Assembly (NCBI RefSeq): GCF_943737005.1
Contig: NZ_CALSFU010000014.1
Location: forward strand, 62,001 to 126,000
DNA length: 64,000 nt
Direction of reading: 5' to 3'
Origin: Achromobacter sp. Marseille-Q4962
Lineage (GTDB): Bacteria; Pseudomonadota; Gammaproteobacteria; Burkholderiales; Burkholderiaceae_B
Numbering within the stretch: position 1 is the stretch's first letter; each line of letters starts with the position of its first letter. This document shows positions 5,041 through 11,002 of this stretch, piece by piece. Both the position numbers and the translations under genes were made by a program. The notes beneath the pieces are model-generated. The model made no database searches and had not been told where the DNA came from. It was given only the letters and a program-made list of their open reading frames with translations.

Positions 5041-5820
5041 ATGGCCCAAGCTTTTGAAGCGCTTTCCGCCTGGCAGGTCATGCTGGCGGGCCTGCTGTTC
5101 TTCGGCGGCATCTATCTTCTGTTCGGCGCGGTCACGTGGCTGCTCACGCACCACATCCTGCCCGCGCTGGGCATCGGCCGGCCGCTCGATCCGCGGCCGC
5201 TGGCGCCCGGCCAGCTGCGGCGCGAGCTGGCGCAGTCCGGCGTGTCGGTGCTGCTGTTCGGCACCGGCATGATTTTTCCCTGGGGGCTGCTGAAGCTGGG
5301 CTGGGCGCGGCTGGACCCGGACGCGGGCTGGGGGCGGATCACGCTGGAGATCCTGTTCCTGCTGGCCTGGAACGACGTGCATTTCTGGATCAACCATCGC
5401 CTGCTGCACACGCGCCTGCTCAGGCGTTTCCACCTGCCGCACCACCGCTCGGTGGTGACCACGCCGTTTTCCACCTACAGCTTCCATCCGCTGGAGGCGC
5501 TGATGCTGGGCAACGTCATCCTGCTGCCCATGGTGGTGCACGACTTCAGCTTCTGGTCGCTGTTCTCGGTGCCGCTTTTCAGCCTGTTCTTCAATTGCGT
5601 GGGCCACGCCAACTACGACTTCTTTCCCGGCGTGTCGTATTCGCACTGGTTTGCCGCCAGCCGCCGGCACCATCTGCACCACGCCTGCTACCACGGCAAT
5701 TACGGGTTCCAGTTCACCTTCATGGACCGCCTGTTCGGCACGCGGCTGGCGGCCGATGCCGCCGACGCCCAGCTGCGCACGCACGCGCGGCGCCAGACGG
5801 CGCAGGGCCATGCGTCCTGA
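5041..5820 (+). CDS. Sterol desaturase / fatty acid hydroxylase family membrane protein
   Basis: A 259-residue membrane protein with the full histidine set of the fatty acid hydroxylase superfamily: H114, H119 and H123 (HFWINHRLLH), H131, H134 and H135 (HLPHH), H189, and the cluster at 210-218 (HHLHHACYH). Hydrophobic segments precede and separate these boxes. Such enzymes use a di-iron centre to hydroxylate or desaturate lipids. It is the first gene of a tight four-gene set (next gene overlaps by 11 bases). An AT-rich stretch at about 4960-4985 may hold the promoter. The substrate is unknown. Confidence 0.85.
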   Translation: MAQAFEALSAWQVMLAGLLFFGGIYLLFGAVTWLLTHHILPALGIGRPLDPRPLAPGQLRRELAQSGVSVLLFGTGMIFPWGLLKLGWARLDPDAGWGRITLEILFLLAWNDVHFWINHRLLHTRLLRRFHLPHHRSVVTTPFSTYSFHPLEALMLGNVILLPMVVHDFSFWSLFSVPLFSLFFNCVGHANYDFFPGVSYSHWFAASRRHHLHHACYHGNYGFQFTFMDRLFGTRLAADAADAQLRTHARRQTAQGHAS

Positions 5821-6715
5821 GCGCGCCCGGCTGCCGCGCCTGCGCAACCGGCGCGACTGGCAGAGCCTGGCCTACCTGGCGGCGCTGCCCGCGCTGGCGG
5901 CCTGGCAGTGGGTGCATGGATTCTGGTGGCCGCTCTATGGGCTGATGCTGTTCCTGACGCTGGGCATCGGCGTCATCCACCACAACCACACGCACCTGCG
6001 CATGTGGCGCGGACGCGCCGCCAATCGCCTCACCGACTACGCCATCACGCTGCTGCAGGGGCATCCCACCTTTGTGTTCTTCCCCGCGCACGTGGCCAAT
6101 CACCACCGCTACAAGCACGGCCCGCGCGACGCGGCGCGCACCTATCGCTTCGGCGGCGACACCAATCATCTCTGGGGCTATCTCATCCACCCCGCGCAGG
6201 CGGTGTGGGTGCTGTACCCGCTCTTCTTCGCCTGGCTGGGCCGGCTGCGCCGCCACTGGCCGGGCGCGTGGCGCTATTGCATGGGCCAGTACGCGGCCTG
6301 GCTCGGGTTGTGGGGAGGGCTGCTGGCGCTGGACCCGGCCAAGGCGCTGCTGTTCGTCATCGTGCCGCAGCTGCACGGGCTGCACTGGCTGCTGGCCACC
6401 AATTACCTGCAGCACGCGCACGCCGACGGCGGGCCGCAGCGCGTCGCCCGCCTGAGCTACGCGCGCAACTTCGAGGGGCTGGTCAATCCGCTGCTCTTCA
6501 ATATCGGCCTGCACACCGCGCATCACGAGAATCCGCGCGCGCACTGGTCGGAGCTGACCGCCCTGCACAACAACCATTACTGCGCACGGGTCGACCCGTC
6601 GCTCAACGAGCCGGGCCTCGTGCCCTACATGTTCCGCGTCTTCGTGCTGGGAACGGTGCTGCCGCGCTGCCGCACCCGTTCGCGCATGACGCCCGGGCGC
6701 CCGAGCCACTCCTGA
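5810..6715 (+). CDS. Membrane fatty acid desaturase
   Basis: A 301-residue integral membrane desaturase of the PF00487 type. Histidine boxes are seen at residues 57-62 (HHNHTH), 94-103 (HVANHHRYKH) and in a C-terminal HTAHHENPRAH motif. Hydrophobic stretches separate the first two boxes from the third, as usual for the family. The start ATG lies inside the end of the preceding hydroxylase-like gene, which implies coupled translation. With the two genes downstream it probably acts on an acyl chain made by the ketosynthase. The regiospecificity cannot be read from the sequence. Confidence 0.85.
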   Translation: MRPERARLPRLRNRRDWQSLAYLAALPALAAWQWVHGFWWPLYGLMLFLTLGIGVIHHNHTHLRMWRGRAANRLTDYAITLLQGHPTFVFFPAHVANHHRYKHGPRDAARTYRFGGDTNHLWGYLIHPAQAVWVLYPLFFAWLGRLRRHWPGAWRYCMGQYAAWLGLWGGLLALDPAKALLFVIVPQLHGLHWLLATNYLQHAHADGGPQRVARLSYARNFEGLVNPLLFNIGLHTAHHENPRAHWSELTALHNNHYCARVDPSLNEPGLVPYMFRVFVLGTVLPRCRTRSRMTPGRPSHS

Positions 6716-6729
6716 GGGAAAACCCACGC

Positions 6730-8667
6730 ATGCCCATTGCCTTTCATCGCGTCTACCTCGAAAGCGCCGGCTATTTCATGCCGGGCGAGCCCGTTTCCAA
6801 CGAGGAAATGGACCACTACATCGCGCCGCTCAACCGGCTGTCGGGACGCATCAAGCAGCGCATCCTGGCCGAGAACGGCATCCGCCAGCGCTACTACGCC
6901 ATCGGCCCGGACGGGGCCACGCGCTACAGCAATGCGCAGCTCGCCAGCCAGGCCATCCGCGACTGCCTGGGCCGCGCCCGGGCCGGGCTGGCCGACGTGT
7001 CGCTGCTGGCCAGCGGTTCGTCGGGCGGCGACGCGCTGATGCCGGGCTTTGCCAACATGATCCAGGCCGAACTCGCGGCGCCGCCCATGGAAGCGCTGTC
7101 GGTGCACGGCATCTGCGCCGCCGGCGTGTCGGCGATCCAGGCGGCGGCGCAGGGCGTGGAGATGGGCGGGCATGCGCGCGCGCTGGCCGTGGCCAGCGAG
7201 CTGCCGTCGCGCCTTTTCAAGCGGTCGCGGTTCGCCGCGCGCGGCTACGACGCCGACTTCGACGCGCATTTCCTGCGCTGGATGCTCTCGGACGGCGCCG
7301 GCGCGGTGCTGCTGGGCAAGGGAGAGGGCGCGCTGCCCGGCGCGTCGCAAGGCGTGCGGCTGCGGCTCAAGTGGGTCCACCAGCGCTCGTTCTCGGGCGA
7401 CTACCCGGTCTGCATGCAGCTCGGCCTGTCGGCCGACCGCAGCAAGGGGCACCTGGACTATCCGTCCTGGAGCGACGCCGAGGCCGACGGCGCGCTGTCG
7501 CTGCGCCAGGACATCCGGCTGCTGCCGCACCTGTTCGACATCGGCATCCACGAGTACGCCAAGCTGGTGCGCGATGGCTGGGTCGATCCGGACCAGGTGG
7601 ACCACTTCCTCTGCCACTATTCGTCGGAGAAGTTCATTCCGGTGGTGGCCGACCTCATGGAGAAGGCCGGCCTGGCCATCGCGCGCGAGCGCTGGTTCAG
7701 CAACCTGGCCTGGCGCGGCAATACGGGCGCGGCGTCCATTCTCATCATGCTGGCCGAGTTCCTCGAAACGCGCGAGGTCAGGCCGGGCGAACAGATCTTC
7801 TGCTACATCCCCGAGTCCGGCCGCTTCATGACCGCCTACATGCTGCTGGAGGCCGAAGCGGCCGACGGGCCGGCGCGGGCATCCGCCGCCCCGCAAGCGC
7901 CGGCCCGCGCGCCGGCCGGCGTCTCCGACGCGCACAGCGCCGACGCGCAGGCCATTGCGCCGCCGCACGACCCGGCCGCCGCGCCCCAGGGCCTGGGCCA
8001 GCTGCTCACCGAACTGGCCTCGATCTGGCACGACTACCGCTCGCGCGTCTGGCGCACGCCGCTGGTGCGGCGCCTGCGCAACCGCCGGTTCACCACCGAC
8101 GACTACCTGAACTGGATGGCGCAGTGGATTCCGCAGGTGCGCGAAGGCAGCAAATGGATGCGCGAAGGCGCGGCCTCGCTCAGCGAGCCCTACCGGCCGC
8201 TGGCCGCGCTGATCGACACCCACGCCGGCGAGGAGCAGAACGATTTCGAGATCCTGTTCCGGGACTACCGCAACGCCGGCGGCACGGCAGAGGACATCGA
8301 CGCGCTGCGCCGCAATCCGGGCGGCGAGGCACTGAACGCCTACCTGCACGGCCTGGCCGCCACGCGCGACCCGATCGGCCTGCTGGGCGCGATCTACATC
8401 ATCGAAGGCACGGGCCAGCGCATCGTGCCGGCGCTGCTGCCCCTGCTCAAGGCCAGCCTCCGGCTGCCGCCCGATGCCTTCCGCTTTCTGGAATACCACG
8501 GCCACAACGACGAGCATCACCTGGCGCGCTGGCTGTCGGCGGTGGAGCTGGCGCTGGATTGCGACGAGGACGGGCGCGCCGAGCGCCGCATCGTGGACAC
8601 CGCAAGGCGCACCGCGGCCCTGTACCTGATGCAGTTCCATCACGTCATGGAGGAGGACCCGGCATGA
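6730..8667 (+). CDS. Ketoacyl synthase III-like protein fused to a haem-oxygenase-like di-iron domain
   Basis: The 645-residue protein has two domains. Residues 1 to about 375 form a thiolase-fold KAS III (FabH-like) enzyme with an intact catalytic triad: C129 (HGICAAG), H296 (HFLCHYSS) and N331 (RGNTGAAS). An Ala/Pro-rich linker spans about 376-420. Residues 421-645 form an all-helical haem-oxygenase-like domain with candidate iron ligands H498 and E501/E502 (THAGEEQND), E559 (IIEGTG), and D594 and H596/H597 (HNDEHH). Enzymes of the second type include UndA, which oxidatively decarboxylates fatty acids. The fusion suggests condensation followed by oxidation of the product. Its stop overlaps the next ATG. 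Confidence 0.8.
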   Translation: MPIAFHRVYLESAGYFMPGEPVSNEEMDHYIAPLNRLSGRIKQRILAENGIRQRYYAIGPDGATRYSNAQLASQAIRDCLGRARAGLADVSLLASGSSGGDALMPGFANMIQAELAAPPMEALSVHGICAAGVSAIQAAAQGVEMGGHARALAVASELPSRLFKRSRFAARGYDADFDAHFLRWMLSDGAGAVLLGKGEGALPGASQGVRLRLKWVHQRSFSGDYPVCMQLGLSADRSKGHLDYPSWSDAEADGALSLRQDIRLLPHLFDIGIHEYAKLVRDGWVDPDQVDHFLCHYSSEKFIPVVADLMEKAGLAIARERWFSNLAWRGNTGAASILIMLAEFLETREVRPGEQIFCYIPESGRFMTAYMLLEAEAADGPARASAAPQAPARAPAGVSDAHSADAQAIAPPHDPAAAPQGLGQLLTELASIWHDYRSRVWRTPLVRRLRNRRFTTDDYLNWMAQWIPQVREGSKWMREGAASLSEPYRPLAALIDTHAGEEQNDFEILFRDYRNAGGTAEDIDALRRNPGGEALNAYLHGLAATRDPIGLLGAIYIIEGTGQRIVPALLPLLKASLRLPPDAFRFLEYHGHNDEHHLARWLSAVELALDCDEDGRAERRIVDTARRTAALYLMQFHHVMEEDPA

Positions 8668-9560
8668 GTCCCCAACCGGATTTCCTGGCGCAGGGCCACG
8701 ACCCGGCCGACCCCAGCCCCTGGCTGGCGCTGTACCTGGACCGCAGCACGCCGCTGCCCGACGAGGTCAAGCGCGCCTGGCTCACGGACTCCAGCAGCGC
8801 GTCGCGCCAGTACCTGCTGCCGTTCCTGCGGCCGCTGGCGCGCGCCTTCATCATCCTCATCCAGATCGTCAAGACCTTCCTGCCGCGCCGCTGGTCGCAC
8901 TCGCGCCTGCTGCACCGCATCCTGGCCTGGGGGCTCAAGCGCTTCGTCTCGCCCGAGGCCAACTGGCTGATCCTGCGGCATTTCCACCTGGGCGCGCAGA
9001 TCCTGTCCTTCATCGCCGCCAATTCGCCCGTGCCCGTCAGCACCACGCCGCTGGAGCCGCGCGAGATCGACGACCTCAAGGACGAGCTGTTCGTCAAGCA
9101 TGACCTCAACCTCTTCAACTTCGTCATCCGGCTGAACCAGGCGCTGCGCGAGGCCGGCGTGGAGATGCACGCGCCGGCCGAGGTGGATTTCGGCATGATC
9201 CGCGACCCCGGCCTGCGGCTCGAAGACCTGCCGCACGGCCGGCTCAACTTCCTCGACCTGCAAAGCGCCATCGAGCTCTTCACGCCGCTCTACCAGCTCA
9301 TGCTGACCGACAACGACTTCTGGCGCGCGGCCAACTCGCTGCAGCTCGACGAGACCATCGGCATCTACGCGGCCAAGCTGCTGGGCGCGCCGCAGCACCT
9401 CATCCTGGTCAACAACAAGCATCCGCTGGTGCCGATGTCGACCTTGCGCGCCGGCTACCGGCTGGTGCTGCACGGCCTGTCCACCGAAATGCTGCACAGC
9501 CTGCTGTGCGAGATGAAGGCGGAAAAGGAAGGCGGCGAGCCGGTGGCTCCGATCGCCTGA
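8664..9560 (+). CDS. DUF6999-like protein of unknown function
   Basis: A 298-residue protein whose ATG overlaps the preceding stop (ATGA). It has one or two hydrophobic segments near residues 50-70, a region rich in charged and aromatic residues, and no motif that I can tie to a known enzyme. I recall such proteins as DUF6999, found next to ketosynthase and desaturase genes, but that family name is from memory. The overlap places it firmly in the same transcript as the two membrane oxygenases and the ketosynthase fusion. It may be a membrane-associated partner or acyl-processing protein. Confidence 0.6.
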   Translation: MSPQPDFLAQGHDPADPSPWLALYLDRSTPLPDEVKRAWLTDSSSASRQYLLPFLRPLARAFIILIQIVKTFLPRRWSHSRLLHRILAWGLKRFVSPEANWLILRHFHLGAQILSFIAANSPVPVSTTPLEPREIDDLKDELFVKHDLNLFNFVIRLNQALREAGVEMHAPAEVDFGMIRDPGLRLEDLPHGRLNFLDLQSAIELFTPLYQLMLTDNDFWRAANSLQLDETIGIYAAKLLGAPQHLILVNNKHPLVPMSTLRAGYRLVLHGLSTEMLHSLLCEMKAEKEGGEPVAPIA

Positions 9561-9718
9561 TAGGCAGGCTGCGCGCGGGGCGGAGACCCGGGAGTGCAGG
9601 CGCGCCCTAGCAATCTCCCTGAGTGGCCGCGACGGGACGCTGCGGTATAGTCCGTCGCTTGTCCGTGCTGCCGGGCCGCGCTTTCCAGGCGCCGGCGCTC
9701 ATTCCCAAAGCTCTCGAT

Positions 9719-11002
9719 ATGCCTCACTCCATGGAACTCATCGCCACCCTGCTGTTCGCGGTGGCGGTCCTCCACACGTTTTCCGTGCCCGTGTTCGCGC
9801 GGCTCGCGCATCGCGGCGGGCCGCATGCGGGCATCTGGCATCTGTTCTCCGAGGTCGAGGCGGTGTTCGGCGTATGGGCCTTCGTGCTCATCGTTGCGAT
9901 GGCGGCGCTGTCGGGTCCGTCGCACGCCATCGAGTACATGGACACGCGCAACTTCACCGAGCCGCTGTTCGTCTTCGTCATCATGGTGGTGGCTTCCAGC
10001 CGGCCCATCCTCGACCTGGTGGGGCAGCTGGTGCGCGTGGTGGCGCGGCTGCTGCCGGTGCGCCGCGAACTGGCCACCTTCTTCGTGGTGATGTCGCTGG
10101 TTCCGCTGGGCGGTTCGTTCATCACGGAGCCGGCCGCCATGACCCTGGCCGCCATCCTGCTGCGCGACGCCTATTTCCGCACCAGCGGGCGGACGGGCTT
10201 CAAGTACCTGACGCTGGGCGTGCTGTTCGTCAACGTGTCCATCGGCGGCGTGCTCACGGCCTACGCCGCGCCGCCCGTGCTCATGGTGGCTTCGTCCTTC
10301 GGCTGGGACACGGGTTTCATGCTGGCGCATTTCGGCTGGCGCGCGGCCCTGGCGGTGTGCCTGAACGCCGCGCTGCTCACGCTGGTCTGCCGCAAGGTGC
10401 TGCTCGACGGCGAGGTGGGCACCGGCGGCGGCGTGGACGCGCCCGACGGCGCGCAGCCGCGCCCGCCCGTGCCCTGGCCCGTGACCGCGGTGCACATGGC
10501 CATTCTGGTGGCCGTGGTGCTCACCGCGCACCATCCCGCGATCTTCCTGGGCCTGCTCATGATGTTCATCGGCTTTGCCGAGGCCTACAAGCGCCACCAG
10601 AACCGGCTGCTCATCAAGGAAGGCCTGATGGTGGGGTTCTTCCTGGCCGGCCTGGTGGTGCTGGGCGGCCTGCAGAAATGGTGGCTGCAGGATCTGCTGG
10701 GCGGGCTGGAGCCCTTCGTGCTGTTCTGGGGCGCCACCGCCCTGACGGCCGTCACCGACAACGCGGCCCTGACCTACCTGGGCTCGCTGGTCGAAGGCAC
10801 CAGCACCGTCTGGCACTACATGCTGGTGGCCGGCGCGGTGACGGGCGGCGGGCTGACGGTGATCGCCAATGCGCCCAACCCGGCGGGCTTCGCCATCCTC
10901 AAGAACCATTTCCCCGACGGCAGCATCTCCTCGGGCCGTCTGTTCCTGTGCGCGGCCGGCCCCACGGCCGTGGCCGCCCTGATGTTCCTGCTGCCCGTAT
11001 AG
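9719..11002 (+). CDS. Putative Na+/H+ antiporter (Na_H_antiport_3 family)
   Basis: A polytopic membrane protein of 427 residues with about ten hydrophobic segments. Conserved-looking stretches include GGSFITEPAAMTLAAI and TAVTDNAALTYLGSL, polar breaks inside helices of the kind found in ion transporters of this family. The call rests on overall resemblance to putative Na+/H+ antiporters (PF07399), whose transport activity is little tested. A TATAGT hexamer at 9646-9651 may be the -10 box. It stands alone between the lipid cluster and fmdB. Confidence 0.7.
   Translation: MPHSMELIATLLFAVAVLHTFSVPVFARLAHRGGPHAGIWHLFSEVEAVFGVWAFVLIVAMAALSGPSHAIEYMDTRNFTEPLFVFVIMVVASSRPILDLVGQLVRVVARLLPVRRELATFFVVMSLVPLGGSFITEPAAMTLAAILLRDAYFRTSGRTGFKYLTLGVLFVNVSIGGVLTAYAAPPVLMVASSFGWDTGFMLAHFGWRAALAVCLNAALLTLVCRKVLLDGEVGTGGGVDAPDGAQPRPPVPWPVTAVHMAILVAVVLTAHHPAIFLGLLMMFIGFAEAYKRHQNRLLIKEGLMVGFFLAGLVVLGGLQKWWLQDLLGGLEPFVLFWGATALTAVTDNAALTYLGSLVEGTSTVWHYMLVAGAVTGGGLTVIANAPNPAGFAILKNHFPDGSISSGRLFLCAAGPTAVAALMFLLPV

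Follow-up and report, generated by a model that had tools for sequence, protein, structure and literature searches.

We found that a StlD/DarB-like ketosynthase (KS) and a haem-oxygenase-like oxidase (HDO) are joined in one chain in Achromobacter sp. Marseille-Q4962, and that this fusion is real and conserved. The HDO stands where DarA, the flavodoxin-like aromatase of classical dialkylresorcinol pathways, stands beside stand-alone ketosynthases, and DUF6999 is the third constant member of the KS/HDO module. The best description of the protein, referred to here as KS-HDO, is a ketosynthase from a pathway like that of the dialkylresorcinols, with an oxidase of the iron-oxygen type exchanged for its redox partner. 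The partner exchange, a changed ligand motif in the oxidase and the tie to DUF6999 are new in KS-HDO.

Architecture and spread of the fusion

The window analysed here (the whole 64,000-nucleotide stretch of DNA) carries KS-HDO as the third gene of a tight cassette of four, in the order fatty acid (FA)-hydroxylase, FA-desaturase, KS-HDO and DUF6999 (Table 1). The hydroxylase and desaturase genes overlap by 11 nt, counting the desaturase from its likely ATG at 5810, which was picked by inspection. A gap of 14 nt precedes KS-HDO, and its end shares 4 nt (ATGA) with the start of DUF6999; stop overlaps of the A/G/T-TGA type occur in 58 of 80 relatives. The initial annotation proposed a ketosynthase and a C-terminal HDO on one chain, and this holds, with one open reading frame whose two parts both score above their cut-offs. 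The KS part matches ACP_syn_III_C at 37.1 bits (cut-off 26.6), and the HDO part matches PF14518 (Haem_oxygenas_2) at 47.9 bits over residues 508-632 (gathering score 28.9). The separately encoded HDOs of two split loci described below (L126 and L127) also exceed the PF14518 gathering score.

Table 1. Features of the KS-HDO cassette, with positions in the window
Feature	Position	Strand	Size or evidence
FA-hydroxylase / sterol-desaturase family protein (PF04116), cassette gene 1	5041..5820	+	Pfam E 3.8e-21
FA-desaturase family protein (PF00487), gene 2	5810..6715	+	Pfam E 5.1e-23 on ORF from 5651
KS-HDO fusion gene	6730..8667	+	645 aa, single ORF, free of internal stops
KS domain, StlD/DarB-like	6745..7851	+	residues ~6-374; NF005293, 5gk0, triad conservation
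KS triad codons	C129 7114-7116; H296 7615-7617; N331 7720-7722	+	
Ala/Pro-rich linker between KS and HDO	7852..7962	+	residues ~375-411; length and sequence variable (alignment)
HDO domain	7963..8664	+	residues ~412-645; PF14518 and conservation
HDO candidate metal ligands, N-terminal set	E472 8143-8145; H498 8221-8223; E502 8233-8235; D505 8242-8244	+	
HDO candidate metal ligands, C-terminal set	E559 8404-8406; H590 8497-8499; D594 8509-8511; H597 8518-8520	+	
DUF6999 protein (PF22523), gene 4	8664..9560	+	Pfam E 3.5e-133

A search for this architecture in other genomes, which had been suggested along with the initial annotation, returned it repeatedly. At E ≤1e-20, 14 of 200 genomes of the order match the KS-HDO protein, 11 of them (the own genome included) with the full fusion and three with the ketosynthase alone. 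A wider contig scan found 308 relatives, and the best 80 of the 308, a sample biased to close relatives, are all full-length fusions, mostly from Achromobacter, Variovorax, Bordetella and Advenella. Given this full-length recurrence in 11 of 200 genomes and in 80 loci of the contig scan, KS-HDO is not an assembly artefact. No characterised enzyme of this architecture had been known to the initial annotation, and likewise we found none among the matches listed in a mostly open-access literature, as judged from titles and the starts of abstracts. The words 'ketosynthase' and 'fused' are also absent from the available part of an HDO review (PMC13108848).

Among the best 80 of the 308 loci, the FA-hydroxylase and DUF6999 genes are present in all 80 and the FA-desaturase gene in 79. 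All six tested Achromobacter-type flanking genes are missing from 50 of the 80 loci, each longer than 14 kb, so the four-gene cassette stays together while its surroundings vary. The Na+/H+ antiporter (9710-11002) is among the genes missing from those 50 loci and was rejected as a member of the system. Farther along the window (20816-42479) lie surface polysaccharide genes, encoding glycosyltransferases, an ABC transporter with a Wzt_C domain, a member of the GDP-mannose dehydratase family and a Kdo transferase; three of the ten open reading frames scanned there have no Pfam match.

Exchange of DarA for an HDO

Ketosynthases of the StlD/DarB family are associated with cyclohexanediones and resorcinols. 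Among solved structures, the KS domain is closest to StlD (5gk0; E 3.5e-60, residues 6-373), and its top NCBIfam match is the StlD/DarB family NF005293 (E 6.4e-94). The triad C129-H296-N331, which the initial annotation had already recognized, aligns with that of StlD and is invariant in all 91 aligned fusions (90 distinct, as L002 and L023 are the same in sequence). The scores against the curated StlD/DarB models lie below their cut-offs (315 versus 450 bits for NF005293 and 248 versus 550 bits for NF053539) and no DarA is present, so the protein is not to be classed as DarB.

We questioned which proteins accompany such ketosynthases. With the KS-HDO profile at E 1e-30, matches were found in 20 of 398 Pseudomonadota genomes; scoring at most three candidates per genome gave 21 KS loci, of which seven are fused to an HDO, two lie beside a separate HDO and 12 are stand-alone. 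Neighbours were then surveyed by BLASTP at 46 loci (43 distinct), with the fusion of genome G558 added by tblastn and with plasmid KS matches H7 and H8 (Bacteroidota) and H3 and H4 (Streptomyces) left out. A DarA homologue lies beside 15 of 15 distinct stand-alone KS loci, namely the 12 of the 398-genome search, L012 and L013 of the order, and the Streptomyces plasmid L136. By comparison, the 21 fused and eight split loci with a linked HDO, 29 distinct loci in all, have no DarA homologue beside them; for eleven fused loci (L002-L011 and L108) the survey had only approximately 1.5 kb of flank. Within the 398 Pseudomonadota genomes alone, the counts are 12 of 12 stand-alone loci and zero of nine HDO-linked loci.

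The same pattern was found at the level of whole genomes. In a search of 21 chosen genomes, which left out the split genome G687, DarA was found in four. In three of these, G024, G111 and G143, the ketosynthase found is stand-alone; the fourth is G558. DarA was not found in 17 of the 18 KS-HDO genomes searched, the own genome included. G558 has a KS-HDO cassette and, apart from it, a stand-alone ketosynthase with an adjoining DarA, and is useful for asking whether the two give different products. NCBIfam and Pfam scans gave no name to the DarA homologue, which we take to be DarA by the usual annotation of such proteins and by its place beside the ketosynthase. Its identity rests as well on the darA-darB order given in the available part of PMC3949708, where DarB is the DAR-cyclase and DarA the DAR-aromatase.

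Two ketosynthases on Prevotella and Bacteroides plasmids (L181 5001-6116 and L182 5001-6119) lack both DarA and an HDO within 11 kb, and it follows that such a ketosynthase can do without both partners. In this orphan form, the StlD/DarB-like gene lies directly 3' of a gene for a TetR or helix-turn-helix regulator.

Genetic work on the classical pathway gives the exchange a chemical frame. In Pseudomonas chlororaphis, hexyl-propyl-resorcinol is absent from darA and darB mutants and still produced by a darC mutant (PMC6403133, excerpt), and cyclohexanediones are intermediates ahead of resorcinol in the pathway (PMC4414361, excerpt). That an HDO occupies the place of DarA does not entail that it carries out the same reaction. 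Nevertheless, genomic position, read together with the DarA/DarB literature, suggests that the HDO oxidises the ring product of the ketosynthase. From the partner exchange we infer that this product would be a cyclohexanedione-type ring and that the HDO would replace DarA as its oxidase.

We hypothesized that KS-HDO is a ring-lipid synthase whose HDO oxidises the KS ring in place of DarA, a reading that we favor while holding it tentatively. The ketosynthase would take two acyl thioesters of fatty-acid metabolism, join them by Claisen condensation and close a six-membered 1,3-dione, like StlD and DarB. The HDO, with O2 and a non-haem iron centre, would then convert this ring by oxidation into either a dialkylresorcinol or a ring carrying more oxygen, filling the position that the aromatase has in the classical route. 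In Burkholderiales, two membrane iron enzymes, the FA-hydroxylase and the FA-desaturase, might tailor the alkyl chains. No HDO is described with aromatase activity in the HDO literature examined, as far as the available parts of those sources extend.

The order of steps might also be the reverse, with the HDO desaturating or hydroxylating a fatty acyl group (e.g., to a 2-enoyl chain for ring closure) that the ketosynthase then condenses, perhaps to a non-aromatic product. The fused cassette also has FA-desaturase and FA-hydroxylase genes, and UndA is an HDO that acts on fatty acids (PMC13108848, available part). We consider this order unlikely, since, with cyclohexanediones preceding the resorcinol (PMC4414361, excerpt), it leaves unexplained why HDO and DarA are mutually exclusive beside the ketosynthase at the Pseudomonadota loci examined.

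Candidate metal site of the oxidase

Characterised HDOs share the motif E-H-E-H-(D/E)-H with a variable spacing of the first two ligands, and approximately 85% of the analysed HDO groups (of 150) are predicted to have E-H-X-H-(D/E)-H, according to the available part of PMC11363339. In our alignment, the KS-linked HDO departs from this motif at position two, which is Asp, and keeps the other five. E502, E559 and H590-x3-D594-x2-H597 lie at the places usual for HDOs (UndA, CADD, BesC, AetD and SznF), and these five residues are invariant across 17 HDO domains, fused and split. AetD, with D76-x2-H79, E140 and H172-x3-E176-x2-H179, has the same spacing as KS-HDO (PMC11611611, excerpt). As one motif position is unmatched, the domain is not a standard HDO with three His and three carboxylates. 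It differs from these five HDOs also in being tied to a ketosynthase.

We next compared the 17 KS-linked HDOs with the 21 nearest other HDOs with loci, taken from 75 weaker profile matches. At the second motif position, all 17 KS-linked HDOs have Asp (D505) and all 21 others have His, giving E-x2-D for the usual E-x2-H. Position 498 is His in all 17 and Tyr in all 21, and position 469 is Gln in all 17 and His in all 21. Position 472 is more variable, with Glu in 13, Asp in three and Gln in one of the KS-linked HDOs and His in 18 of 21 others. Among the 91 fusions, positions 469, 472, 498 and 505 are fixed, save E472 (90 of 91). The ligands listed in the initial annotation can be sorted accordingly. 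H498, E502, E559, D594 and H597 are invariant in all 91 fusions; E501 (85 Glu, 6 Asp) and H596 (50 His, 40 Asn, 1 Arg) vary and drop out, and H590 and D505, which the list had missed, are invariant as well.

H498 sits one helical turn ahead of E502. Since HDOs differ in how far apart their first two ligands lie, H498 could substitute for the lost second-position His and so keep three His at the site. Among solved structures, only 3dde (E 1e-11) matches the HDO profile significantly. It is a TENA/THI-4 protein of haem-oxygenase-like fold that in the alignment shares the His of position 498 with KS-HDO and has His, not Asp, at position 505. A His at 498 thus also occurs outside the KS-linked HDOs, and it is D505 that distinguishes them here. 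The domain is a probable iron-oxygen oxidase. A more specific form of our preferred reading can be stated: in a flavin-free, O2-dependent pathway of the dialkylresorcinol type, an HDO with the ligand set E-D-E-H-D-H and, a turn ahead of its first Glu, a further His that never varies would oxidise or aromatise the ring made by the fused ketosynthase, with DUF6999 as the third constant family. We regard this form as possible and hold it with less confidence.

The same substitutions, D505 for His and H498 for the Tyr of near HDOs, raise the question of whether the site supports di-iron O2 chemistry. It could be mononuclear, as in FlcD, or metal-free, as in PqqC and TenA, and the domain could oxidise or isomerise the ring by another mechanism or serve a structural role only. 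In FlcD a different cofactor accompanies the altered ligand motif, and PqqC and TenA do not require a metal (PMC11363339, available part). FlcD loses its last two ligands (V, R), while KS-HDO changes the second position and keeps the last three. All 91 fusions keep the five remaining motif positions unchanged, and three His and several carboxylates remain on offer, which makes an altered site of this kind quite unlikely.

A reading offered by the initial annotation was that an acyl group lengthened by the ketosynthase is decarboxylated oxidatively by the HDO, as by UndA, to an alkene or ketone. PF14518 is common to UndA and the KS-linked HDO, and E502, E559, H590, D594 and H597 are in place. 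The first ligand pair of UndA is E-H (PMC11363339, excerpt, and our alignment), and the pair in KS-linked HDOs differs, with Asp for the usual His after E-x2 in 17 of 17. In addition, the ketosynthase is StlD/DarB-like, and in its gene context the HDO stands at the position of an aromatase. We therefore set the UndA-type alkene synthase aside as very unlikely. Another HDO, on a Variovorax paradoxus VAI-C replicon (L135 3780-7460), has the usual motif and adjoins genes annotated as thermostable hemolysin, AMP-binding protein and SDR oxidoreductase, and looks like part of another HDO pathway.

Split forms and the third member

Condensing enzyme and probable oxidase were initially viewed as one unit, and this is borne out by eight distant loci in which each has its own gene, side by side, the remaining HDO-linked loci having the fusion. 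The two split cases of the 398-genome search, G547 and G412, have a KS gene and a neighbouring HDO gene followed by DUF6999. DUF6999 occurs in nine of the 398 genomes, and these are exactly the nine with an HDO-linked ketosynthase. An HDO-only profile recovers the same nine at 318-362 bits, with the next match at 98 bits; the profile was built with rows from seven of the nine, and its informative part is the gap in score below them. Six of 240 genomes of the class of G412, a class other than that of the window and perhaps Alphaproteobacteria, contain DUF6999, and all six have the order KS, HDO, DUF6999, with KS and HDO directly upstream. In the order of G547, only G547 itself contains DUF6999 (1 of 148 genomes). 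DUF6999 is also encoded by Caulobacter vibrioides, which served as a control in the search for this family. On a Pseudoalteromonas plasmid, genes for a 186-aa membrane protein, KS, HDO and DUF6999 are consecutive, and the same four are found in G547.

Across the eight split loci, KS, HDO and DUF6999 are present, and neither an FA-hydroxylase nor an FA-desaturase was found. In fused genomes, no desaturase was found in G144 and G169 and no hydroxylase in G101, the wider regions L128-L130 included. The two membrane enzymes were therefore rejected as core components, and the content of the split loci argues for a core of KS, HDO and DUF6999.

In the KS tree, the 20 fused rows form one clade (100/100), whose sister group consists of the rows from Pseudoalteromonas and G547 (99/98). 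Together with the separate but neighbouring genes for KS, HDO and DUF6999 in distant genomes, this makes a single later fusion event from a split ancestor the simplest reading. The branch that divides HDO-linked from DarA-linked ketosynthases is weak (85/58).

HDO-linked ketosynthases also differ near an FLRW motif. The distance from the active-site Cys to FLRW is 52 in all 20 fused ketosynthases measured, 52-57 in six split rows and 61-62 in six DarA-linked rows, counting readable rows only (six of eight split and six of 15 DarA-linked). HDO-linked ketosynthases thus lack up to approximately 10 residues before FLRW that are present in StlD and in the readable DarA-linked ketosynthases, and the ring or the substrate of the ketosynthase may for this reason differ from that of StlD/DarB. 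Compared with StlD/DarB and DarA pathways (dialkylresorcinol and isopropylstilbene), KS-HDO is alike in its KS homology, its Cys-His-Asn triad and a directly adjoining partner, and differs in the missing insertion and in having an HDO and DUF6999 as partners, with the HDO fused in Burkholderiales. The missing insertion, the separate clade of fused ketosynthases and the pyrones made by the ketosynthase-like PpyS (PMC4414361, available part) would fit a linear beta-keto or pyrone-like lipid that the HDO hydroxylates, in place of a six-membered dione, and with StlD as the nearest solved relative we rate this the least probable outcome.

DUF6999 could bind a metal, judging from H106, H146, D147, D198, D229, H270 and E275, which are invariant in 15 aligned members. 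Searches against solved structures gave no significant match for DUF6999, the FA-hydroxylase or the FA-desaturase, and no mention of DUF6999 was found in a mostly open-access literature. The KS-HDO module would place this family in a pathway, and KS, HDO and DUF6999 form a defined three-protein module with an experimentally testable product.

Approximately a dozen HDOs have been functionally validated, mainly on fatty or amino acids (PMC13108848, available part). If our preferred reading, oxidation of the KS ring by the HDO, is correct, the reaction would be new to the HDO superfamily, and its products would be a new class of lipid or signal across Achromobacter, Bordetella and Variovorax, the split forms belonging to other Pseudomonadota. 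Since bacteria are known to signal with dialkylresorcinols and cyclohexanediones (PMC4414361, excerpt) and hexyl-propyl-resorcinol affects biofilm formation (PMC6403133, excerpt), a second, O2-dependent route to resorcinol-related molecules would matter for Burkholderiales signalling and membrane biology.

The surroundings of individual loci offer further observations. Membrane-like proteins of 186-188 aa are encoded directly upstream of the split ketosynthase in two of the eight split loci (L134 9436-9993 and L127 11443-12006) and have several His, Glu and Asp in common; Pfam gave no match for either, and NCBIfam none for that of L134. Downstream of the G412 split cassette lies a gene for a 1133-aa protein (L126 5699-9097), the start of which resembles that of LplT-acyltransferase-acyl-ACP synthetase fusions. 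In G101, a prokaryotic diacylglycerol kinase gene (L128 6174-6557) adjoins DUF6999, and a glycosyltransferase family 9 gene lies beyond the desaturase.
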